Shown: in pieces, positions 2,323 to 63,936 of the stretch
Layout of the letters: each line of letters starts with the position of its first letter
Position numbering within the stretch: position 1 is the stretch's first letter
Assembly (NCBI RefSeq): GCF_014191715.1
Contig: NZ_JACHWY010000001.1
Location: forward strand, 744,001-808,000
Reading direction: 5' to 3'
DNA: 64,000 bases
DNA from: Litorivivens lipolytica
GTDB taxonomy: Bacteria; Pseudomonadota; Gammaproteobacteria; Pseudomonadales; Spongiibacteraceae
Translations under genes and position numbers: made by a program
Notes under the pieces: generated by a model
Seen by the model: the letters and a program-made list of their open reading frames with translations, nothing else
Database searches by the model: none
Told to the model about the DNA's origin: nothing

Positions 2323-3363
2323 TCAGAGCAGAGGCCGCTGACTCAAACGTGAAATCCATTTACCCAGCACCGCATCAAACGCGCCATGTGCTGCAACACC
2401 TACTTTTTCCGCCAAGGTTTTTTTGGCGACATATTTCACTTCGAAGAGATCACAGTCTCCGCGTTTCTGAAGAATATACTCGTCGCTGGTAGAAATGCTA
2501 TCAATCAGATTTTCGGCCAAAGCCTGCGAGCCGTACCACACTTCACCAGTAGCCACTTTTTCAATATTTACCTGAGGCCGGTTTTCACTCACAAACTGTT
2601 TGAACAGAACGTGCGTTTCCTCAAGCTCCTCACGGAATTTATCACGCCCCTCCTCCGTATTCTCACCGAATACGGTCAAGGTACGCTTGTAATCGCCCGC
2701 GGTATGCATTTCAAAATCGACGTTATGCTGCTTCAGCAAACGGTTGAAGTTCGGCAGCTGGGCAATGACGCCGATAGAGCCCAGTATCGCAAAGGGCGCA
2801 GCAAGAATACGGTTGCCGATACAGGCCATCATGTAGCCGCCACTGGCCGCCACTCGGTCAACGGCGATTGTCAGCGGGATGCCTTGATTGCGAATACGGG
2901 CCAACTGTGACGCGGCAAGTCCATAGCTGTGCACCATGCCACCTGCACTTTCCAGCCGCACCAAGACCTCATCGGTCTGCTTGGCCAGCGTCAGCACGGC
3001 AGAAATTTCATGGCGTAGATGCTCTACATCTGAAGCTTTTACATCGCCGTCAAAATCGAGCACGAAGAGTCGCGGCTTTTCATTTTCTTCCGCCCCGCTT
3101 TTCTTTTTGGCTTTGCGCTCGGCCTTGGCTTTTTTCTGGGCAGCCTTGCGTTCCGCCTTAAAGCTGGCTTCGTCCAGAACCACGGACTTGATCTGCTCTT
3201 CCCAGTCTTCGAAGCGATCATTTAACGCAGTCACTTCAATATGGCCCTCGTTATCGCGGCGCCGGCCGCCGAGCGAACTGAGCATGCCGATAATAAGTAA
3301 GGCGGCGACAACAAAAGTAACCGTTTTCGCGAGAAACAGACCGTAATCCGAGAGAAATTCCAA
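2323..3363 (-). CDS. sohB: SohB, membrane-anchored S49 family serine peptidase
   Basis: Inner-membrane signal-peptide-peptidase-like protease. A TTG start at 3363 has GGAG six bases upstream and gives the family N-terminus (M)EFLSDYGLFLAKTV at 346 residues, close to the 349 of E. coli SohB; longer upstream starts lack support. The order is one transmembrane helix, a Lys/Ala-rich charged segment around residues 90-115, then the S49 fold. The nucleophile Ser lies in AASGGYMMAC (about residue 173) and the general-base Lys in GDYKRTLTVF (about 224). It degrades membrane-associated peptides in the periplasm. It follows a small membrane-protein gene by 58 bp and may be cotranscribed with it. Confidence 0.93.
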   Translation of the reverse strand: MEFLSDYGLFLAKTVTFVVAALLIIGMLSSLGGRRRDNEGHIEVTALNDRFEDWEEQIKSVVLDEASFKAERKAAQKKAKAERKAKKKSGAEENEKPRLFVLDFDGDVKASDVEHLRHEISAVLTLAKQTDEVLVRLESAGGMVHSYGLAASQLARIRNQGIPLTIAVDRVAASGGYMMACIGNRILAAPFAILGSIGVIAQLPNFNRLLKQHNVDFEMHTAGDYKRTLTVFGENTEEGRDKFREELEETHVLFKQFVSENRPQVNIEKVATGEVWYGSQALAENLIDSISTSDEYILQKRGDCDLFEVKYVAKKTLAEKVGVAAHGAFDAVLGKWISRLSQRPLL

Positions 3364-3421
3364 ATTGTGCTCCGGGTTCAAATACGTGGGCGAGGCATAT
3401 TCGCGTCCGAGGGGCAGCCTG

Positions 3422-4072
3422 TCAAGAAGACCACTCTGCAACGGCAACAGCAGCCGCGTCATTTAATGGCCGTGCAATCAAGCCAAAACTGGTCATCGAA
3501 ACCTGAAAGCGCGCGCCGTCCGCCATAGGTAGATAGGCCGCGCTGCCGTAATCGGCGTCCGCAAATTGTGCAAGGCGTTCGTTCTGACGCAGCCAGTGCC
3601 ACAGATCGACTGCGCGCGACTCACCCAGCGCATGAACACTGCGCGGTTTATTCAATTCGTCACTGACCGTTGCATAGCGACCTGACAAACGCTCCAGTCG
3701 GAACAGCGGGTCAACGCCCAGCCTGGCCACCACCGATTGCCACTTGATCATGCGTGCATCGAGCTGCCACTGATCACCGTTCAGCACAAACTCCTGAACC
3801 TGGTCATCTACGCGGAGTTCAACCCGGTACTGCTGAGGCGCCTGTCGATGAAATACCAGCTCCGCCACTGGCGTCTCTTCCAGCAGGGCCCGGTAGGAAT
3901 ATAGGTCCCAGGCACTGAACAAAGCGACTCCGGCGAGCAAGGCCGCACTCAGCGCGACCGCGCCTTGAGCGAAATGTTTGAGTACTGGCAGGCTGAACAG
4001 CAAGCGGAATGCGAGCACCAGCAAGCCAATGGCGAGCAAAGTCAGAGCACAAACCAGCAGCATTAAACTCAT
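3422..4072 (-). CDS. Conserved two-helix membrane protein of unknown function
   Basis: A 216-residue protein with two hydrophobic helices in the first 60 residues (MSLMLLVCALTLLAIG, then the stretch around VALSAALLAGVALFS), followed by a soluble domain of about 150 residues. The soluble part has alternating beta-strand character and ends in SMTSFGLIARPLNDAA. Similar proteins next to sohB in pseudomonads are sometimes labelled as efflux pump components, but nothing in this sequence supports transport: it is too short and lacks transporter motifs. The ATG start lies 33 bp downstream of the fimL stop, so it probably belongs to the fimL-sohB transcript. Function unknown. Confidence 0.75.
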   Translation of the reverse strand: MSLMLLVCALTLLAIGLLVLAFRLLFSLPVLKHFAQGAVALSAALLAGVALFSAWDLYSYRALLEETPVAELVFHRQAPQQYRVELRVDDQVQEFVLNGDQWQLDARMIKWQSVVARLGVDPLFRLERLSGRYATVSDELNKPRSVHALGESRAVDLWHWLRQNERLAQFADADYGSAAYLPMADGARFQVSMTSFGLIARPLNDAAAVAVAEWSS

Positions 4073-54436: not shown

Positions 54437-55507
54437 ATGGCAAGCGCAGAAAACCGCGACACCATGCCGGTCAAGGCTTTCCGCTCCCTGCTGCGGGTCG
54501 TGGCGAACCACGGTTATCAGGTAACAGACGTACTGTCAGACCTGGGGCTCGAAGACTACAACCTGCTCAACGCCAGTCCCGTCGACATCGACAACGTCCC
54601 AACTCGGGTATACAGCCGCCTCTACCGCCACCTCATGATCCTGCTTCAGGACGAAGCCTTTGGTATGATGACGCCCAATCGGGCCCCACCCGGCACCTTT
54701 CGAATGATGTGCCTGTTCATTCTCGGCTGTAAAACCCTGCGGCAGGGGATCATTCGCAACGCGGAGTTTCTGGATTACTGCGATCAGTTCCGCAGTGCCG
54801 GCAATCGCCGCATCCCGCTGACAGAAGATCATGAGAGTGGCCGCTGTCTGATTAGATTTAACCCCCCGAATAGCGAAGAGGCCAATGACGGTCACGCCTC
54901 GAAGGCCTCTACCCTCTATATGATGTGGCGCCTGTTCAGCTGGTTTACCGGCCACCCATTGACGCCGCTGGAGGTGCACTTTGTCAGCACGGACGAACGC
55001 CTGTGTCAGGAGTATGAAACGCTGTTTGGTGCCAGCGTACGTACCGACATGGACGATTACGCCCTGGTTCTACCGATCAATCTACTGGATATCCCTCTGG
55101 TTCAGACAGAAAGCACTCTGCAGAGTTTTCTGCGATCCGCCCCCTACCCCTTGATCAGCCGCAGCGATCCCCATGACAATGACGCTTGGCAGGAGAAGGT
55201 CAAAGCCATCTTCGCCCGCCACCCCGGCAGCGAAGTGCCCTCGGCCCAACGCATTGCCGAACACTTGAACATGTCAGTACGCACCCTGCACCGCCACCTT
55301 CAGAAAGAAGGCACGAGCTACCAGACACTGAAGGATGAATTTCGCAAGGAAACCGCACTGGCCTATATGAAACGGCGCGAACTCAAGATCAATACCATCG
55401 CCCTGCTGATGGGCTTTCAGGACAGCAGCGCGTTTCATCGCTCATTTAAGAAATGGACTGGCCAGTCTCCGGGTCAGTACCGCCGCCAACTGGACAGCCA
55501 AACGTGA
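54437..55507 (+). CDS. AraC family transcriptional regulator (paralogue B)
   Basis: A 356-residue regulator of the same Arabinose_bd/OruR-type layout as paralogue A at 16679-17806. The ligand-binding part includes QDEAFGMMTPNRAPPGTFRM (shared GTFRMMC); the C-terminal helix-turn-helix pair is IAEHLNMSVRTLHRHLQ and INTIALLMGFQDSSAFHRSF, ending WTGQSPGQYRR. Start ATG. Effector and targets are unknown. It shares GTGA with the start of the RNA methyltransferase gene. Confidence 0.87.
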   Translation: MASAENRDTMPVKAFRSLLRVVANHGYQVTDVLSDLGLEDYNLLNASPVDIDNVPTRVYSRLYRHLMILLQDEAFGMMTPNRAPPGTFRMMCLFILGCKTLRQGIIRNAEFLDYCDQFRSAGNRRIPLTEDHESGRCLIRFNPPNSEEANDGHASKASTLYMMWRLFSWFTGHPLTPLEVHFVSTDERLCQEYETLFGASVRTDMDDYALVLPINLLDIPLVQTESTLQSFLRSAPYPLISRSDPHDNDAWQEKVKAIFARHPGSEVPSAQRIAEHLNMSVRTLHRHLQKEGTSYQTLKDEFRKETALAYMKRRELKINTIALLMGFQDSSAFHRSFKKWTGQSPGQYRRQLDSQT

Positions 55508-56271
55508 CGCAACAGGATTCCGAGCAATACCGGGCCCGCAAACAGTTTTACGAGCAGATGCTCACCGTCTATGGACGCAAACCGGTACTTGAAGCTTTGC
55601 AGGACGAAAACCTCCCCGCCTATCGCCTTCATCTCGCAGACAGCAACCGCAAAGACGGAATTATTCGCGATATCCAGGCGCTGGCAGATAAACGCAACAT
55701 CGAAACCCAGTTTCACAGCCGCGAAGCGCTGGCGCGGATATCTCGCAACGGCAAGCAGGATCAGGGCGTGGCGTTGGATTTGCAGCTACCGGGCTATCGC
55801 GATATTAAGACTCTCTCCGAACCTCTACCTGGCGACTGCCGGCTACTGGCACTGGATCGCATTACCAACCCCCAGAACCTGGGAATGATTGTTCGCAGCA
55901 TAGCCGCTAGTGGCATAACCGGACTGTTACTGCCAAAAACGGGCTGTGCCAGCCTGGGCCCTCTGGTAATTAAGGCAAGCGCCGGCACACTGTTCAAAGC
56001 GCCGATCTACCACTGCCAGGAACTGCCGGATACGCTATCGACGCTGAAGGCGCGAGGTTGTCGCGTGGCAACACTGTCTTCTCACGCCAGTCACTCACTG
56101 CTGGAATGGCAACCCGAAGGACCGACCGTCTACGTGCTTGGCAATGAAACCGAGGGCGTTTCCAGAAAAGTCAGTCAGCTAAGTGATGTCAGTCTGGCCA
56201 TCCCTATGCATAACGGTGTGGAATCGCTTAATGTAGCAGTGACCGCCGCCTTGATCGCGTTCAAGCACTGA
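55504..56271 (+). CDS. SpoU/TrmH family RNA 2'-O-methyltransferase
   Basis: A 255-residue methyltransferase. An L30e-like substrate-binding N-terminal part (YGRKPVLEAL) precedes the SpoU knot: NPQNLGMIVRSIAASG, VLGNETEGVS and IPMHNGVESLNVAVTAAL, motifs 1-3 of the family. Resembles RlmB-type enzymes, but the target nucleotide is not known. The GTG at 55504 overlaps the AraC stop; a longer reading inside that gene is not needed. An ATG 18 codons on is an alternative. Confidence 0.88.
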   Translation: MTQQDSEQYRARKQFYEQMLTVYGRKPVLEALQDENLPAYRLHLADSNRKDGIIRDIQALADKRNIETQFHSREALARISRNGKQDQGVALDLQLPGYRDIKTLSEPLPGDCRLLALDRITNPQNLGMIVRSIAASGITGLLLPKTGCASLGPLVIKASAGTLFKAPIYHCQELPDTLSTLKARGCRVATLSSHASHSLLEWQPEGPTVYVLGNETEGVSRKVSQLSDVSLAIPMHNGVESLNVAVTAALIAFKH

Positions 56272-56272
56272 C

Positions 56273-56301
56273 CTGAAAGCTCGCCAGACTCGGTCTATAC
56301 T
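56273..56301 (+). promoter_or_regulatory. Sigma-70-type promoter for the WS/DGAT gene
   Basis: CTGAAA (56273-56278), 17 bases, TATACT (56296-56301). It leaves a leader of about 135 bases before the WS/DGAT ATG. Confidence 0.4.
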
Positions 56302-56442
56302 GGTTGAGATGCAAAGGCATATTAACTCAGATAATAATGTTTATAAGTTCATTGATTTGGAGAATAAGGAACAGGCACTCTAGACTCTCGCTAAAGGAAG
56401 TCCGCCGTAAGTCGTTATCGATACAGAAAAACCGGGGGTAGT

Positions 56443-57834
56443 ATGAGCAAGCTGTCCATGATGGACCTGGCATTTTTTTTAACCGAAACCGAGGCCAGCC
56501 CAAAACATGTGGGCGGCCTGATGATTTTCCGCAAGCCCAAAAACGAGGGGCCAGATTTCGTCAAAAATCTGCACGCCGAACTGCTGAATACCGCCGACCA
56601 AGTCAAACCTCCCTTTAATCAGGTCATTCATTTTCCTAAATTGGGGCGACCGGAATGGCGCCTCGCCGAAAACTTCTCACTGCACGATCATATTTTCTAC
56701 CGGGAGCTGCCGGCCCCCGGCAACCGCCGTGTACTGAACCGCCTCGCCGGTGAGCTGCACACGCCAAAGATGGATCGCAGCAGGCCCATGTGGGAATTTT
56801 ATTTGCTGGACGGCATGGACGGTGACCGCTTTGCGGTTTACTCACGCCTGCATCACGCCTATGCCGACGGGGTCACTATTACGCGATGGACCATTCGCAG
56901 CCTGTCGGAATCGGCGCGTCCCAAAAAGTTAACCCCTGTCTGGTCAGTGCCGAGCGATCGCGAACATCGCGACCGGGAACGCCCTTCCGTCACCAGCATC
57001 GTTCGCACGCTGTTCAGCAAGTCGCGAGATCAGCTAAAGATGATCGCTGGCTTGTCCAAACTCAGCACTCAATTGGTGCTGGAGCAGGTCAATCTCACTA
57101 AAAACGCCGTCGCGGTCCCCTTTAAACTAAGTCATAAAACCGTACTGACGGGGCAGGTATCGGCCGGTCGGCAAGTGTCCACCGCAACGGTGCCGATGGA
57201 ACGGGTTAATCGCCTGCGCAAGATCACTCGCTCCACACTGAATCACGTAGCCCTGAGCTGTATCGACGGTGCGCTGCATCGCTACCTTGAGGAATGCGGC
57301 ACCGATCTGGAAGAACCCATCACGATTCAAATGCCGGTCAACCTGCGCGCCGAGGGTGAAGCTGAGGGCGGCAACCGCATCGGGATTGTGCTGGTCGATC
57401 TGGCGCGCAAGACTAACGACCCGTACGAGCGCCTGCGCGAAATCGGCTTCACCCTGCGTAATGTGCGCTATCAGGTGGACGGTGTTGCACCCTCGTCGGT
57501 TATTGCCTACACCCTGACACTCGGCGTATTCGCCCAGCTGGCAGAACTGTTAAAACTGAGTGATGTACTGCCGCCGCTTGGCAACACTCTAGTATCTAAC
57601 GTGCCGGGGCCGCGCAATACGCTGTATATGGCGGGAGCACGGCTCGAAGAGAGCTATCCGGTGAGCGCATTGACTCCGGGCAATCATATGAACATCACGC
57701 TGTACAGTTACGATAAACATCTGCATTTCGGTCTGGTTGCTTCCCATGCCCTACCCAATCTGGACAAATTGGGCGGATACATCCACGATGCTTTTATCGA
57801 GCTTGAGCAAGCAGTCGACCTCACTAACGCATAA
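56443..57834 (+). CDS. Wax ester synthase / diacylglycerol acyltransferase (WS/DGAT), copy 2
   Basis: A 463-residue WS/DGAT. The catalytic HHxxxDG is HHAYADG (residues 137-143), and SNVPGPRNTLYM is near the C-terminus. The ND motif reads N267-H268 (TLNHVALSC), a change from Asp. Start ATG with GGGGG four bases upstream. It lies 89 bp before a fused acyl-CoA reductase gene, which supports wax ester synthesis: reductase makes fatty alcohol and this enzyme joins it to acyl-CoA. Divergent from copy 1 (266-1753) and without its basic tail. Confidence 0.92.
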   Translation: MSKLSMMDLAFFLTETEASPKHVGGLMIFRKPKNEGPDFVKNLHAELLNTADQVKPPFNQVIHFPKLGRPEWRLAENFSLHDHIFYRELPAPGNRRVLNRLAGELHTPKMDRSRPMWEFYLLDGMDGDRFAVYSRLHHAYADGVTITRWTIRSLSESARPKKLTPVWSVPSDREHRDRERPSVTSIVRTLFSKSRDQLKMIAGLSKLSTQLVLEQVNLTKNAVAVPFKLSHKTVLTGQVSAGRQVSTATVPMERVNRLRKITRSTLNHVALSCIDGALHRYLEECGTDLEEPITIQMPVNLRAEGEAEGGNRIGIVLVDLARKTNDPYERLREIGFTLRNVRYQVDGVAPSSVIAYTLTLGVFAQLAELLKLSDVLPPLGNTLVSNVPGPRNTLYMAGARLEESYPVSALTPGNHMNITLYSYDKHLHFGLVASHALPNLDKLGGYIHDAFIELEQAVDLTNA

Positions 57835-57923
57835 CAACGGAATCTAGACAACACGAACACTAAGTCCCTTATCGAAAACAACACCTAGAAAAACTGATAA
57901 TTCGTATTATTGAGGAGCAAGGC

Positions 57924-59915
57924 ATGAACTACTTCGTGACAGGCGGAACCGGATTCATTGGCCGCTTTCTGATCCAAAACCTCTGCAAGCGTGACGGCAC
58001 TATCTATGTGTTAGTTCGAAAAAGCTCCCGCCATAAAATACAAACACTGATCGAACAGTGTGGTGTGGACAAAGACAAAATTGTTGCGGTTAACGGCGAT
58101 CTTTCGAAAAAGCGTCTGGGGGTTTCACCCAAGGACATGAAAGCCCTCACCGGCAACATCGATCACTTTTATCACCTCGGCGCCATCTACGATCTGAAAG
58201 CCGATGCCGCCAGTCAGGAAGTTGCCAATGTTGAAGGCACCCGCAATGCAGTAGCCTGTGCAGAACAAATGCAGGCCAAATGCTTCCATCTGGCCAGTTC
58301 AATCGCAGCCGCCGGCATGTACCGCGGCACCTTCCGCGAAGACATGTTCGAGGAAGCCGAAGGACTCTCTCACCCCTACTTCCGCACCAAACATGTGAGT
58401 GAAGGCATTGTTCGCAAGGAGTGCTCCATTCCCTGGCGCGTGTATCGCCCGTCAATGGTAGTCGGTCATTCTCAGACCGGTGAAATGGACAAGATTGATG
58501 GACCTTATTACTTCTTCAAGGTACTCCAGAAATTCCGTCGCATGCTGCCACCCTGGGTTTCTCTGATCGGGGTTGAAGGCGGCCAAATGAACATTGTGCC
58601 GGTAGATTATGTTGCCGATGCCATCGACTACATCTCTCACAAACCCAAGCTCGACAATACCTGCTTCCACCTGACCGACCCGAACTCAAAACGGGTGGGC
58701 GAAGTGCTCAATATTTTTGCCGAAGCTGGTCACGCACCGCGCATGGCCCTGCGCATCGACACCCGCATGTTTGCCTTTATCCCGGAAGGCATCCGCTCCA
58801 TGCTCGGCAACTTACCCCCCATCAAGCGCATTATTCAGGCGGTCTTGGGTGACTTCGGCATTCCTGCCGATGCCCTCAAATTTGCCAACATGCAAACTCG
58901 CTACGATACCCGCGAGACTGAGCGCGCGCTGAAAGGCAGTGGTATAAGCGTGCCCTCACTGGAAAGCTACGCGCCAGCGATCTGGGATTACTGGGAGCGT
59001 AAACTCGATCCAGATCTGTTTAAGGACCGCACCCTCAAGGGGAACGTTGCCGGCAAGGTTGTGGTTATTACTGGCGCCTCTTCCGGTATCGGTAAAGCCG
59101 CCGCCCTGCAGCTGGCCGAAGCCGGCGCTCAGGTTGTACTGGTTGCCCGCAGCATCGAAAAACTGGAAGAAACCCAGAAAGAGATTAAAGAAATGGGGGG
59201 CACCTCATTCGCCTATCCCTGCGACGTCTCCGACATGGAATCCTGCGACAAGCTGGTGGAAACCGTCCTCAAAAATCACGGCCACGTGGATGTGTTGATT
59301 AACAACGCCGGCCGCTCGATCCGCCGCTCACTGGAACTGACCTTCGATCGATTCCATGACTTCGAGCGCACCATGCAGCTCAACTACTTTGGTGCCATCC
59401 GTCTGGTGATGGGCTTTGCGCCCTCCATGCTGGAGCGTCGCCAGGGGCACGTCATCAATATTTCATCGATCGCCGTTATCGTTGGCACCTCGCCCCGATT
59501 CTCGGCCTACGCGGCCTCCAAATCTGCACTGGATGCCTTCTCTCGCAGCGCGGCGGCGGAATTTTCGGATCGCAATATTGCCTTCACCACGATCAATATG
59601 CCCTTGGTACGCACCCCGATGATCGGCCCGACCTCGATCTATCAAGCCGTGCCGACCCTGACACCGGAAGAAGCCGCCAACATGATCGGCGAGGCCATTG
59701 TGAAACGACCCAAGCGTATCGCCACGCCACTGGGCATTACCATGCAGGTGCTCAACGCCATCATGCCGAAGGCGACCGAGATCATTATGAATATGGTTTT
59801 CAAAACCTTCCCGGACTCTGCTGCGGCCCAGGGCAGCGATACCGAAGGTTCCAAAACCGAGCCCTCCTCAGAGCAGGTGGCACTGGCCGCCGTCCTCAAG
59901 GGCATTCACGTCTGA
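57924..59915 (+). CDS. Fused fatty acyl-CoA reductase / fatty aldehyde reductase
   Basis: A 663-residue two-domain protein. Residues 1-370 are an extended short-chain reductase with GGTGFIGRFL (7-16) and YxxxK (Y152, K156). Residues 375-640 are a classical one with TGASSGIG (383-390), NNAG (460-463) and YAASK (Y529, K533). The layout and sequence match the Marinobacter enzyme (661 residues, as I recall) that reduces acyl-CoA or acyl-ACP to fatty alcohol with NADPH. RBS GAGGAG. Its partner WS/DGAT lies just upstream. Confidence 0.92.
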   Translation: MNYFVTGGTGFIGRFLIQNLCKRDGTIYVLVRKSSRHKIQTLIEQCGVDKDKIVAVNGDLSKKRLGVSPKDMKALTGNIDHFYHLGAIYDLKADAASQEVANVEGTRNAVACAEQMQAKCFHLASSIAAAGMYRGTFREDMFEEAEGLSHPYFRTKHVSEGIVRKECSIPWRVYRPSMVVGHSQTGEMDKIDGPYYFFKVLQKFRRMLPPWVSLIGVEGGQMNIVPVDYVADAIDYISHKPKLDNTCFHLTDPNSKRVGEVLNIFAEAGHAPRMALRIDTRMFAFIPEGIRSMLGNLPPIKRIIQAVLGDFGIPADALKFANMQTRYDTRETERALKGSGISVPSLESYAPAIWDYWERKLDPDLFKDRTLKGNVAGKVVVITGASSGIGKAAALQLAEAGAQVVLVARSIEKLEETQKEIKEMGGTSFAYPCDVSDMESCDKLVETVLKNHGHVDVLINNAGRSIRRSLELTFDRFHDFERTMQLNYFGAIRLVMGFAPSMLERRQGHVINISSIAVIVGTSPRFSAYAASKSALDAFSRSAAAEFSDRNIAFTTINMPLVRTPMIGPTSIYQAVPTLTPEEAANMIGEAIVKRPKRIATPLGITMQVLNAIMPKATEIIMNMVFKTFPDSAAAQGSDTEGSKTEPSSEQVALAAVLKGIHV

Positions 59916-59921
59916 CCCTCT

Positions 59922-59941
59922 TGGCCGCCCTCGGGCGGCCA
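59922..59941 (+). terminator. Terminator-like hairpin after the acyl-CoA reductase gene
   Basis: TGGCCGCC-CTCG-GGCGGCCA, an eight-base GC-rich stem, six bases after the reductase stop. Followed by TTCCCTCC rather than a T-run. Confidence 0.55.
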
Positions 59942-60082
59942 TTCCCTCCTTACCGACTAGAAACCTTTCGACTAAGCCCGCAAAAATATTTTGCCAAGGG
60001 TATTGACGCCGGGCACACTTAGCCCGACATTAGCGCCGTTTTTACCACCCCCCGGTTTTGGCCACAGGAGAGTCTGCCAGGC

Positions 60083-61174
60083 GTGTTGGAAATCGTTAAC
60101 GTATCACGCCGGTTCGGCGACTTTCAGGCACTGAACGAGGTCAGCCTTCAGGTACAGGCAGGGGAGTTCTTTACCTTGTTGGGGCCTTCGGGCTGCGGCA
60201 AAACCACCCTGCTGCGTTCCATTGCGGGTTTTGACACACCGGATAGTGGCGACATCCTCCTCGATGGCAAATCCCTGCTGGCCCTGCCGCCGGAAAAGCG
60301 GCCGGTGCACACCGTCTTTCAGAGCTACGCCCTGTTCCCGCATATGACGGTAGCTGACAATATCGCTTTTCCGCTGCGCATGAGTGGCGTCGGCAAGGCC
60401 GAGATTGAGCGCCGCGTTGCCGATGTCCTTGAGGACGTGCGCCTGCCCGACAAGGCCAAACATTTCCCGGAAGAATTGTCCGGCGGTCAACGCCAGCGCA
60501 TTGCTATTGCCCGCGCACTGGTCAATCGCCCTCGCCTTCTCTTGCTCGATGAGCCGCTATCGGCACTCGACGCAAAGCTACGCGAACAAATGCAGATTGA
60601 ATTGATCAACCTGCAGAAGGAAGTCGGCATTACCTTCGTTTACGTGACTCACGATCAGGGCGAGGCGCTGGCCCTGTCCCATCGCATTGCGGTCATGAAC
60701 AAGGGTGAGGTCAGCCAGATCGACGAGCCATCCCTGCTGTACAGCAGTCCGAAAAACCGCTTTGTCGCGGACTTCATCGGCCAGTGCAATCTGCTGGATG
60801 GTAAGGTCGTAAGCTGTGACGGGGCAACTACCCGAATCACAATCGATGGTCTCGGTGAACTCGCCGTGCAAAGCAATCCGAACATCCCGTTCAATGTCGG
60901 CGATGATTGCGCACTGACTTTGCGCCCGGAAAAGATTCGTCTGGCGAAAAGTGTTGCGCCCGAAAGCGACGAAGTCCACTTTCCAGGAACCGTTCACGAC
61001 ATGCTGTATCTGGGTGATGTAACGGTTTATATCATCGAGGTTAAGCGCGATGGCCATCCGGTACTGATCGAAGCCCTGCTCGCCAACAGCGCTCCGGGGC
61101 GCGCTCGCCTGCTCGATACCGGCGATGCCGTCGAAATCTGCTGGCCGCGTGACGCCGGCCATCTGGTTCGCTGA
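60083..61174 (+). CDS. potA: Spermidine/putrescine ABC transporter ATP-binding protein
   Basis: A 363-residue ATPase subunit. Walker A GPSGCGKTT, Q-loop VFQSYALFPH, signature LSGGQRQR, Walker B LLLLDEPLSALD, switch THDQGEAL, and a C-terminal TOBE domain (about 270-350) used for regulation. Gene order ATPase, two permeases, binding protein is that of potABCD. Start GTG; an AGGAG lies 17 bases upstream, so the start might be a little different. It energises polyamine uptake. Confidence 0.9.
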   Translation: MLEIVNVSRRFGDFQALNEVSLQVQAGEFFTLLGPSGCGKTTLLRSIAGFDTPDSGDILLDGKSLLALPPEKRPVHTVFQSYALFPHMTVADNIAFPLRMSGVGKAEIERRVADVLEDVRLPDKAKHFPEELSGGQRQRIAIARALVNRPRLLLLDEPLSALDAKLREQMQIELINLQKEVGITFVYVTHDQGEALALSHRIAVMNKGEVSQIDEPSLLYSSPKNRFVADFIGQCNLLDGKVVSCDGATTRITIDGLGELAVQSNPNIPFNVGDDCALTLRPEKIRLAKSVAPESDEVHFPGTVHDMLYLGDVTVYIIEVKRDGHPVLIEALLANSAPGRARLLDTGDAVEICWPRDAGHLVR

Positions 61175-61176
61175 CC

Positions 61177-62073
61177 GTGAAGCTCACGATGAAAAACGGT
61201 GCCAAGGCCCTGCTGACCCTGCCGCCGGCCGTATACCTCTTTCTGTTTTTTGCGGTACCCGGCCTGCTGATGCTGCTGGCCTCATTTCGCTTCCCCGGCG
61301 ACTACGGTGGTCTGGCTCCTTGGTATTACGTGGAAGACGGCGCGATAACCTTCGACCTGACACTGGAGAACTGGGCGCGCCTGTTTGAAACCACGCTCTA
61401 CCTGCAGCTGCTACTCAAATCCCTGCTGTTTGCCGTTCTGACAACGGCTATCTGCGCTTTACTCGCCTACCCGCTGGCGCTGACCATTGCCGCCAGCCCG
61501 AAAAAGCATCGCGATTTGCTGATCTTGATGGTCATCCTGCCGTTCTGGAGTAATTTTCTGGTGCGCATCTATGCCTGGATGATTATCTTCAGTCCGCAGG
61601 GCGCGCTGACCGAAGGCCTCAATCACATCACCGGCTTACTCGGTCTGGAACCCGTCAATCTGATGTTTAGCAGCGTGGCAGTTATCACCTGCCTGGTCTA
61701 CGTCCACCTGCCCTTCATGGTGCTACCGCTGTACGCCAATCTGGAAAAACACGATCCGGCCTTGCTCGACGCGGCACAGGACCTTGGTGCAACCCGCGCC
61801 CAGCGCTTCTGGAAGGTTACCTGGCCGCTTAGCCTGCCCGGCCTATACGCCGGCGCCGTGCTGGTGTTTATTCCAACGCTGGGCATTTTCGCCATACCCG
61901 ACTTGTTAGGCGGCACCAACGGCATCATGATCGGTAATGTGATCAAGCAACAATTTGTGGAAAGCCGCGACTGGCCCTTCGGCAGTGTGCTGTCGTTGGT
62001 ACTGACCGGTATTACCCTGGTACTGGTAGTTCTCGCCGGTCGCCTTGGGCGCACTCCGGGAGCCCTCACATGA
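61177..62073 (+). CDS. potB: Spermidine/putrescine ABC transporter permease
   Basis: A 298-residue inner-membrane permease with six helices. The N-terminal AVYLFLFFAVPGLLMLLASF, the segment ILPFWSNFLVRIYAWMIIF and the cytoplasmic EAA loop (AAQDLGATRAQRFWKVTWPL) are family features. The GTG at 61177 is three bases past the potA stop; an ATG four codons on is an alternative. Confidence 0.9.
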   Translation: MKLTMKNGAKALLTLPPAVYLFLFFAVPGLLMLLASFRFPGDYGGLAPWYYVEDGAITFDLTLENWARLFETTLYLQLLLKSLLFAVLTTAICALLAYPLALTIAASPKKHRDLLILMVILPFWSNFLVRIYAWMIIFSPQGALTEGLNHITGLLGLEPVNLMFSSVAVITCLVYVHLPFMVLPLYANLEKHDPALLDAAQDLGATRAQRFWKVTWPLSLPGLYAGAVLVFIPTLGIFAIPDLLGGTNGIMIGNVIKQQFVESRDWPFGSVLSLVLTGITLVLVVLAGRLGRTPGALT

Positions 62074-62092
62074 TGGCGCAGGAGATTTGGGC

Positions 62093-62863
62093 ATGAGGCG
62101 TCGCAACCCCTTGGTTACCAGCGCTGCCGTCGGCGTTTACGCCTTCCTCTACATTCCGCTGATTGTGGTAGCGATCTTTTCGTTTAACGATTCGCGCCTC
62201 AATGCGGAGTGGGTCGGCTTTACCATGAAATGGTATCGCCAGCTGATCGAGAATGATGCCATGCTGCAGGCCGCCGCCAATTCGTTGATTATTGCAAGCT
62301 GTGCCGCTATTGCCGCTGGCGTTCTCGGCACACTGGCTGGCGTTGCCCTGCACCGTTTTCGCCAGAAATGGCTGACGGCACTGGTGCTCGGCCCGGTCGC
62401 CATGCCCGACATCCTGATCGGTGTCAGCCTGCTGCTAACCTTTATGCTGATGAATATCAGCCTTGGCATGATGTCGATCATTCTGGCGCACGTCACCTTC
62501 TGTATTGGCTTTGTCGCCATGGCGGTACAGTCCCGGATGGCCGGCATGGACGACAGTTTGCTGGAGGCCGCCCGCGATCTCGGCGCAAGCCAATGGCAGA
62601 GTTTTCGCCTGATTACCCTGCCCCTGCTGATGCCTGGGATCGTGGCGGGCATGATGATGGCGTTCACGCTGTCGATTGATGACTTTGTCGTGACCTTTTT
62701 CACTGCCGGCGTCGGCAGCTCTACCTTGCCGCTGGAGATTTACTCCATGGTCAAGATTGCTGTCACTCCGGAAGTTAACGCGGTATCAACCCTGCTGATG
62801 TTGCTGACGCTGATATTGATTACCGCCCTGTCGCGTTTTTCACCGCAATCCCTTCGGAGCTGA
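62093..62863 (+). CDS. potC: Spermidine/putrescine ABC transporter permease
   Basis: A 256-residue permease. The ATG at 62093 has AGGAG eight bases upstream; a longer reading that overlaps potB is not used. Six helices; EAA loop EAARDLGASQWQSFRLITLP. Family segments include YIPLIVVAIFSFNDSR and SIDDFVVTFFTAG. It pairs with PotB. Confidence 0.9.
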   Translation: MRRRNPLVTSAAVGVYAFLYIPLIVVAIFSFNDSRLNAEWVGFTMKWYRQLIENDAMLQAAANSLIIASCAAIAAGVLGTLAGVALHRFRQKWLTALVLGPVAMPDILIGVSLLLTFMLMNISLGMMSIILAHVTFCIGFVAMAVQSRMAGMDDSLLEAARDLGASQWQSFRLITLPLLMPGIVAGMMMAFTLSIDDFVVTFFTAGVGSSTLPLEIYSMVKIAVTPEVNAVSTLLMLLTLILITALSRFSPQSLRS

Positions 62864-62868
62864 AAGCC

Positions 62869-63936
62869 ATGAAGAAACTTGTCACCGCTGTGGTTTTGAG
62901 TCTGACCGCGCTGGTCTCACCTGCGCAGGCCCAGAAAACGCTAAACCTGTTTAACTGGAACGACTATATTGCAGACGAAACCGTTGCCCGGTTCGAGCAG
63001 CAATGTGACTGCAAGGTTGTGCAGGACTATTTTTCTTCCACAGAAGAAATGATGGCCAAACTGCTCGCCGGCGGCGGTGATTATGATGTGGTCATTCCCA
63101 CCCAGAACGCGGTTGAAGCACTGATCAAGCAAGGCTTTCTGATGCCGCTGGATAAAAGCAAACTGGGAAATGTAAAAAACATGGGCCCGGGCTTTATGAA
63201 TCGCAGCTACGATCCAGGCAATCAGTACAGCCTGCCTTATGCATTCACCACAACCCTTATTGGCTACAACGAAAACAAGCTGCAGGAATTGGGCATTGAT
63301 CCGAGTGACTGGCGCGTGATCTTTGACCCCACGATACTGGCCAAAATCAAAGGCAAGGTGACCGTCATGGATGACTCGGAAGAACTGATAGCGGCCGCGC
63401 TTAAATATCTTGGTTACTCGGTGAATGACACTAACGAGCAACACCTCAAGGAAGCCCAAGCCGTTATTCTCAAAGCCAAACCTTTCTGGGCCGCGTTTAA
63501 TTCCTCAAGCTATATCAAGGAACTGACCGTCGGTAATATCTGGGTTGCCCACGGCTACTCCAGTGACATGTTTCAGGCACGTAGCGACGCCCAGGAAGCC
63601 GGTCGCCCGTTTACCGTTGGCTTTGTTCTGCCCAAACAGGGGGCGGTCTTGGCTCTGGATAACATGGTGATACCGAAAAAGGCCCGCAGCCCGGAACTGG
63701 CCCATCAGTTTATTAATTTCATGATGGCGCCGGAAAATGCCGCCGAGCTCACCAACATCGTTGGAACCGGCAACCCGAACGCCGAAGCCAAGCGCCTTAT
63801 CGAGCCTGAAATTCTCGCCATCAATGCAATTTTCCCCAGCGAAGAACAGCTCAAAACCCTGGAAACCATCAGCGCAAGAAATTCTAAAGAGCGCCGCTTC
63901 ACCAGTCGTCTGTGGACGGAAATCAAAGTTCGCTGA
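62869..63936 (+). CDS. potD: Spermidine/putrescine-binding periplasmic protein
   Basis: A 355-residue exported protein, signal peptide MKKLVTAVVLSLTALVSPAQ (cut near AQA). It begins KTLNLFNWNDYIADETVARFE, the PotD/PotF signature. Polyamine-contacting acidic and aromatic residues are likely in YSSDMFQ and VLPKQGAVLALDN. Binds putrescine or spermidine; which one is not clear. Last gene of the operon. Confidence 0.92.
   Translation: MKKLVTAVVLSLTALVSPAQAQKTLNLFNWNDYIADETVARFEQQCDCKVVQDYFSSTEEMMAKLLAGGGDYDVVIPTQNAVEALIKQGFLMPLDKSKLGNVKNMGPGFMNRSYDPGNQYSLPYAFTTTLIGYNENKLQELGIDPSDWRVIFDPTILAKIKGKVTVMDDSEELIAAALKYLGYSVNDTNEQHLKEAQAVILKAKPFWAAFNSSSYIKELTVGNIWVAHGYSSDMFQARSDAQEAGRPFTVGFVLPKQGAVLALDNMVIPKKARSPELAHQFINFMMAPENAAELTNIVGTGNPNAEAKRLIEPEILAINAIFPSEEQLKTLETISARNSKERRFTSRLWTEIKVR

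Follow-up and report, generated by a model that had tools for sequence, protein, structure and literature searches.

A conserved pair of predicted wax ester genes, a WS/DGAT-family acyltransferase and a two-domain fatty acyl-CoA reductase, in Litorivivens lipolytica and its relatives

We analyzed a 64,000-nucleotide stretch of the Litorivivens lipolytica genome (assembly GCF_014191715.1, contig NZ_JACHWY010000001.1, positions 744,001 to 808,000 of the forward strand), referred to below as the window, and found that two neighboring genes within it probably form a short wax-ester unit. The upstream gene encodes an O-acyltransferase of the wax ester synthase/diacylglycerol acyltransferase (WS/DGAT) family, and the downstream gene, on the same strand and separated by a gap of 89 base pairs (bp), encodes a two-domain fatty acyl-CoA reductase. 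Both open reading frames (ORFs) were recovered with the coordinates, strand and lengths given in an initial annotation of the window, and their features are as follows:

56443..57834, plus strand: WS/DGAT-family O-acyltransferase gene, 463 residues (ORF; PF03007 and PF06974; TIGR02946)
56851..56871, plus strand: catalytic motif HHAYADG, residues 137–143 (sequence)
57241..57246, plus strand: motif II position, Asn267-His268 in place of Asn-Asp (alignment)
57835..57923, plus strand: 89-bp intergenic gap, with GAGGAG at 57912–57917 ahead of the second ATG (sequence)
57924..59915, plus strand: two-domain fatty acyl-CoA reductase gene, 663 residues, MAQU_2507 type (ORF; NF005539)
57936..58625, plus strand: N-terminal NAD_binding_4 domain (PF07993), residues 5–234, with Y152/K156 (Pfam, residue alignment)
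59055..59627, plus strand: C-terminal short-chain dehydrogenase domain (adh_short), residues 378–568, with N487, S515, Y529 and K533 (Pfam, residue alignment)

The family to which the window belongs (f1, including Spongiibacter, Zhongshania and Neomelitea) was represented by 21 genomes. A full-length reductase was found in 20 of them, and the remaining genome, which is 70% complete, gave no reductase match at 1e-60. In every one of the 20 reductase-bearing genomes a WS/DGAT gene lies directly upstream on the same strand, with stop-to-start gaps of 35–226 bp (the congener, locus L186, has 36 bp). Since order and strand are the same in 20 of 20 genomes, the arrangement is not due to chance, and the adjacency and strand expected of a wax ester operon are both conserved. 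AraC and SpoU genes come before the pair in the window and in L186, an opposite-strand gene from a cluster annotated as AhpC/TSA comes before it in 13 of the 18 remaining family loci, and the genes downstream vary from locus to locus; the pair is thus kept together while its flanking genes change.

The two genes may be transcribed together. No plus-strand terminator-like site falls within the intergenic gap, with nine such sites across positions 55400–60200 as a whole (5.3 expected, standard deviation 2.3). Four promoter-like matches were counted over the same interval, one of them inside the gap, which is within chance (shuffle mean 3.1). An Rfam scan of the window at gathering thresholds returned no match.

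Against NF005539 the reductase scored 970 bits over residues 1–662 (cut-off 549), and it is 64.5% identical over 662 aligned positions to the Marinobacter nauticus DSM 50418 protein (locus L127). Its two Y-x3-K sites, Y152/K156 and Y529/K533, are intact at exactly the positions first reported. No homologue with an inactive site was found: Y152, K156, Y529, K533, G7, S125, N487 and S515 are invariant in 174/174 homologue rows (154 distinct sequences, pooled from the order, class and named loci). The genome has one copy of the two-domain reductase; 64 further matches span at most one domain. It shares with the MAQU_2507 type of Marinobacter (NF005539) the two-domain build, both YxxxK sites and the full-length match, and differs in its neighborhood: the Marinobacter genes have no WS/DGAT within 7 kb (0 of 11 genomes), whereas the gene in the window has one 89 bp upstream. 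MAQU_2507 is assigned to the long type because the 650-residue FCR1 aligns with it over 639 residues at 40% identity, according to the available part of PMC3522743. An identification of the fused reductase as Maqu_2220 was ruled out, since MAQU_2507 is the long type and a separate 543-residue, single-domain reductase of the same genome is likely of the Maqu_2220 type.

The acyltransferase matched both Pfam domains of its family (PF03007, 173 bits; PF06974, 95 bits) and scored 342 bits against TIGR02946, above the curated cut-off of 310. Its catalytic HHAYADG, noted initially, is present at residues 137–143 and is kept in the 19 other family genomes as well. The enzyme is like other WS/DGATs (TIGR02946; structures 6chj and 7nxg) in both Pfam domains, in HHxxxDG and in the SNVPGP and YPVS blocks. 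Motif I reads PMW instead of the described PLW, and PMW is likewise found in the solved enzyme 6chj. We take 6chj and 7nxg to be the enzymes of Marinobacter aquaeolei and Acinetobacter baylyi; the structure records give only molecule names.

Judged by homology, the reductase would convert acyl-CoA (or acyl carrier protein-bound acyl groups, acyl-ACP) with NADPH to the aldehyde and further to the fatty alcohol. The Acr1-like C-terminal domain would perform the acyl-CoA to aldehyde step and the N-terminal NAD_binding_4 domain the aldehyde to alcohol step, and the WS/DGAT would then esterify the fatty alcohol with a further acyl-CoA. We infer this division between the domains because in the related FCR1 the similarity to Acr1 sits in the C-terminal part (PMC3522743, available portion). 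Precedents for the individual steps come from excerpts of three papers: MAQU_2507 and Maqu_2220 use NADPH to turn acyl-CoA into fatty alcohol (PMC7744569), the Marinobacter enzymes are reported to form the alcohol without releasing the aldehyde (PMC3522743), and in Azotobacter a fusion of an A. baylyi WS/DGAT with Maqu_2220 led to wax esters, while a strain with the reductase and without the WS/DGAT gave fatty alcohols (PMC12358690). By analogy, the two enzymes should in principle suffice to convert acyl-CoA to wax ester. Wax ester would be the main product, with a putative role in storage or as an acyl-CoA sink.

A neighborhood comparison across marine gammaproteobacteria, proposed in the initial annotation, was extended beyond the family. 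Of the 293 genomes sampled from the order, 74 matched the reductase at 1e-100; 13 belong to the family, 57 lie outside it and match at full length, and four have partial matches only. We compared 62 full-length loci from the 57 non-family genomes, leaving out the 18 partial matches among the 93 listed. In f28, a second family, a WS/DGAT lies directly upstream of the closest reductase copy in 11/11 genomes, one of these cases being a 74-bit match on the 346 bp visible before a contig edge. Three single loci have a WS/DGAT downstream of the reductase, on the same strand in L084 and L087 and on the opposite strand in L067. Among the 154 distinct reductase rows, this gives 31 with a WS/DGAT upstream on the same strand, two downstream on the same strand and one downstream on the opposite strand.

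The initial annotation gave the equivalent Marinobacter genes as not adjacent, and this was confirmed: no WS/DGAT was found within 7 kb of the reductase in any of the 11 order-sample genomes of f20, the family containing Marinobacter, nor near the reductase at any of 70 named loci outside the window's family (mainly Marinobacter loci, a number of them with flanks shorter than 7 kb). Among 369 genomes sampled from the class, 12 matched the reductase at 1e-150, ten of which were new; a tblastn search for WS/DGAT around these ten loci, covering up to 7 kb a side (less than 600 bp on one side in two of them), found none.

The paired enzymes of the two families probably have distinct histories. In a WS/DGAT tree of 39 rows, which took 13 of the 20 family and nine of the 11 f28 paired enzymes, the window's family forms one clade (100/98) that is sister to f7 (100/100), and the f28 enzymes fall in a distant clade (branch 2.48, midpoint root). 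The nine compared f28 WS/DGATs are 23–26% identical to that of the window. In a reductase tree of 96 rows, built with a quick method and SH-like approximate likelihood ratio test (SH-aLRT) support only, f1 and f28 are distinct clades, and unpaired lineages fall between the two. Five changes of the label "unpaired" are needed on this tree, whether six rows with unknown flanks are treated as unpaired or left ungrouped. This count alone cannot separate gains from losses; separate gains are favored because the WS/DGAT subfamilies differ. Different WS/DGATs have thus probably joined the same type of reductase more than once, and a repeated origin of the pairing in turn favors a functional unit. It also provides independent evidence that this type of reductase serves wax ester synthesis.

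A single ancestral pair for f1 and f28, hinted at by the common HH[AS]YADG, was considered and ruled out by the distant positions of the WS/DGAT clades; the nine aligned f28 enzymes also keep Asn-Asp at motif II and are without the YPVS block. The f7 sister enzymes (L182, L183) are 45–46% identical to the window WS/DGAT and carry HHCM[VM]DG and an Asn-His motif II. Genes of one loose TetR-type cluster stand ahead of the WS/DGAT–reductase pair in nine of the 11 f28 loci (range L050–L059) and beside the reductase in seven f43 loci (L072–L074, L076–L078, L081), the f43 members sharing 30–35% identity with the f28 regulator at L050.

Several observations weigh against a wax-ester unit. The paired acyltransferase belongs to its own clade and departs from the described motif II, where N267-H268 stands in the window and Asn-His in the 19 other family genomes (20/20), as in both f7 sequences, whereas Asn-Asp is found in 6chj, in the nine aligned f28 sequences and in five of the genome's seven other homologues. 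Motif II (ND) is described as characteristic of WS/DGAT enzymes in the available parts of PMC4520822 and PMC5407786, and the Asn-His variant makes it less certain that the paired enzyme is an active wax synthase. It also raises the question of what the aspartate of this motif does. Moreover, most of the sampled reductases are not paired: a WS/DGAT within 500 bp is missing in 111 of the 154 distinct rows, and nine more have flanks too short to tell. Two f28 genomes carry second, more distant full-length reductases with no adjacent WS/DGAT (L184, L185), and the sister WS/DGAT clade occurs in G026 and G068, neither of which is among the 74 genomes with a reductase match at 1e-100.

The remaining counterweight comes from other candidate wax-ester genes in the same genome. 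The assembly (3.49 Mb, nine contigs) holds eight WS_DGAT_C matches, i.e., seven besides the paired enzyme, and five of these other homologues, with HHxxxDG and Asn-Asp, score 397–450 bits against TIGR02946, above the 342 bits of the paired one. A second reductase encoded elsewhere (543 residues, NAD_binding_4 plus Sterile) adjoins an RF3 gene. It is likely of the Maqu_2220 type; we take Maqu_2220 to be 513 residues long. This type catalyzes the same overall reaction as the pair's reductase and differs from it in having one reductase domain plus Sterile and, in this genome, in adjoining the RF3 gene and not a WS/DGAT. It was matched in seven of ten other genomes searched at 1e-60, including 4/4 genomes of the Marinobacter family (54–56% identical), with no match at this threshold in the paired genomes G018 (f1) and G084 (f28) or in G271. 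In G018, the pair's reductase may therefore stand alone. Because of the other WS/DGATs and the second reductase, the pair is not the only possible route in L. lipolytica, and we regard it as a dedicated route in a genome with parallel ones.

Three of the other acyltransferase homologues can be described individually. One lies within the window (L003, 266–1753, minus strand) and carries HHALVDG and an Asn-Asp motif II; it belongs to a different subfamily; the gene next to it, at 2323–3462, encodes an S49 peptidase. L007 and L008 lack HHxxxDG (HRALVDA and HRAIADN at the aligned positions) and, on this basis, may be inactive or have another function.

These counterpoints could be accommodated if the reductase yields alcohols or aldehydes while its partner uses a shifted acceptor (diacylglycerol or another alcohol) or is mostly inactive through Asn-His, bulk wax ester being made by other WS/DGATs. 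The Asn-His pair in 20/20 family genomes and 2/2 sister sequences, the five higher-scoring homologues with a complete HHxxxDG and Asn-Asp, and the Sterile-type reductase all fit such a scenario. We nevertheless consider it unlikely: the catalytic HHAYADG is kept in 20/20 genomes, and linkage to a predicted alcohol-forming reductase in all 20 would be hard to explain if the acyltransferase used an acceptor other than that reductase's product. It is very improbable that the genes are neighbors merely through shared descent and drift. The 20 paired family reductases do form one clade and may reflect one inherited event, but the flanking genes change while the pair stays, and in f28 a WS/DGAT of another subfamily occupies the same place (11/11), with three single loci having one downstream.

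A wax-ester unit formed by the two genes thus remains the reading we favor, and what the ester is for is a separate matter. The pair could serve as a sink, drawing off surplus acyl-CoA while the cells grow on fatty acids or alkanes, and not as a reserve, which is compatible with wax ester formation and which we see as possible, if on the unlikely side. The idea is an inference, and the AraC-type gene upstream of the pair lends it no real support, scoring 158 bits against the GliR model (cut-off 570) and 99 bits against the CypR model (cut-off 500); the evidence is compatible with a sink and a reserve alike. The initial proposal of a single storage-lipid module is supported as regards the linkage of the two genes, by the constancy of the pair in 20/20 genomes, the varying flanks and the pairing in separate lineages; wax ester as the product and its role in storage are putative. 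A bolder proposal sees the paired acyltransferase as a subfamily of its own that coevolved with the reductase and, as its invariant Asp-to-His change in motif II and its fixed linkage would signal, is specialized for the fatty alcohol which that reductase supplies (dedicated to it or physically coupled); gammaproteobacteria would then have recruited various WS/DGAT subfamilies to this reductase several times. This strikes us as doubtful.

Gene pairs of this kind have been seen before. In the available text of PMC10351704, ws/dgat genes are near or adjacent to MAQU_2507-like genes on beta- and gammaproteobacterial scaffolds from coastal sediment, and on the gammaproteobacterial scaffold S1-6186 ws/dgat adjoins a gene with 61.9% identity to MAQU_2507, the same two functions as here. 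These cases are single scaffolds, likened to ours by function and adjacency only, and that text reports neither family-wide conservation nor repeated pairing. The arrangement had been called informative in view of Marinobacter; that contrast holds, but the published scaffolds make it less novel. Neither the conservation across the family nor the repeated recruitment nor the Asn-His variant of motif II turned up in the literature searched, which is weak evidence of absence because most subscription journals lay outside the search. With the same coverage, a search of the wax ester literature for Spongiibacter led to PMC10351704 only, and one for a Zhongshania wax ester synthase to none. The pair is a real, conserved two-gene unit and most likely a wax ester route of known kind. 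It leaves the known wax ester pathway unchanged. Its value is as a compact, natural linkage of two genes whose product can be tested in marine bacteria amenable to culture (Spongiibacter, Zhongshania).

Upstream of the pair, the window and the congener L186 have two further genes:

54437..55507, plus strand: AraC-type regulator gene, upstream, a candidate regulator only (Pfam; L186 counterpart 65% identical)
55453..56271, plus strand: SpoU-type RNA methyltransferase gene, between the AraC gene and the pair (Pfam; present in L186)

The SpoU-type gene is absent from the displayed upstream genes of the other 18 family loci (L097 displays none upstream) and is probably not part of the module. On the downstream side, the polyamine transporter genes at 60083–63936 were ruled out as a component, as L186 carries other genes there. 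At nine loci where the reductase has no WS/DGAT beside it (L043–L047, L052, L060, L142, L167), an AraC-type gene 28–31% identical to that of the window likewise stands upstream of the reductase. In eight of these nine, an opposite-strand gene lies beside the AraC gene, and its cluster is annotated in L043 as an AMP-binding enzyme.

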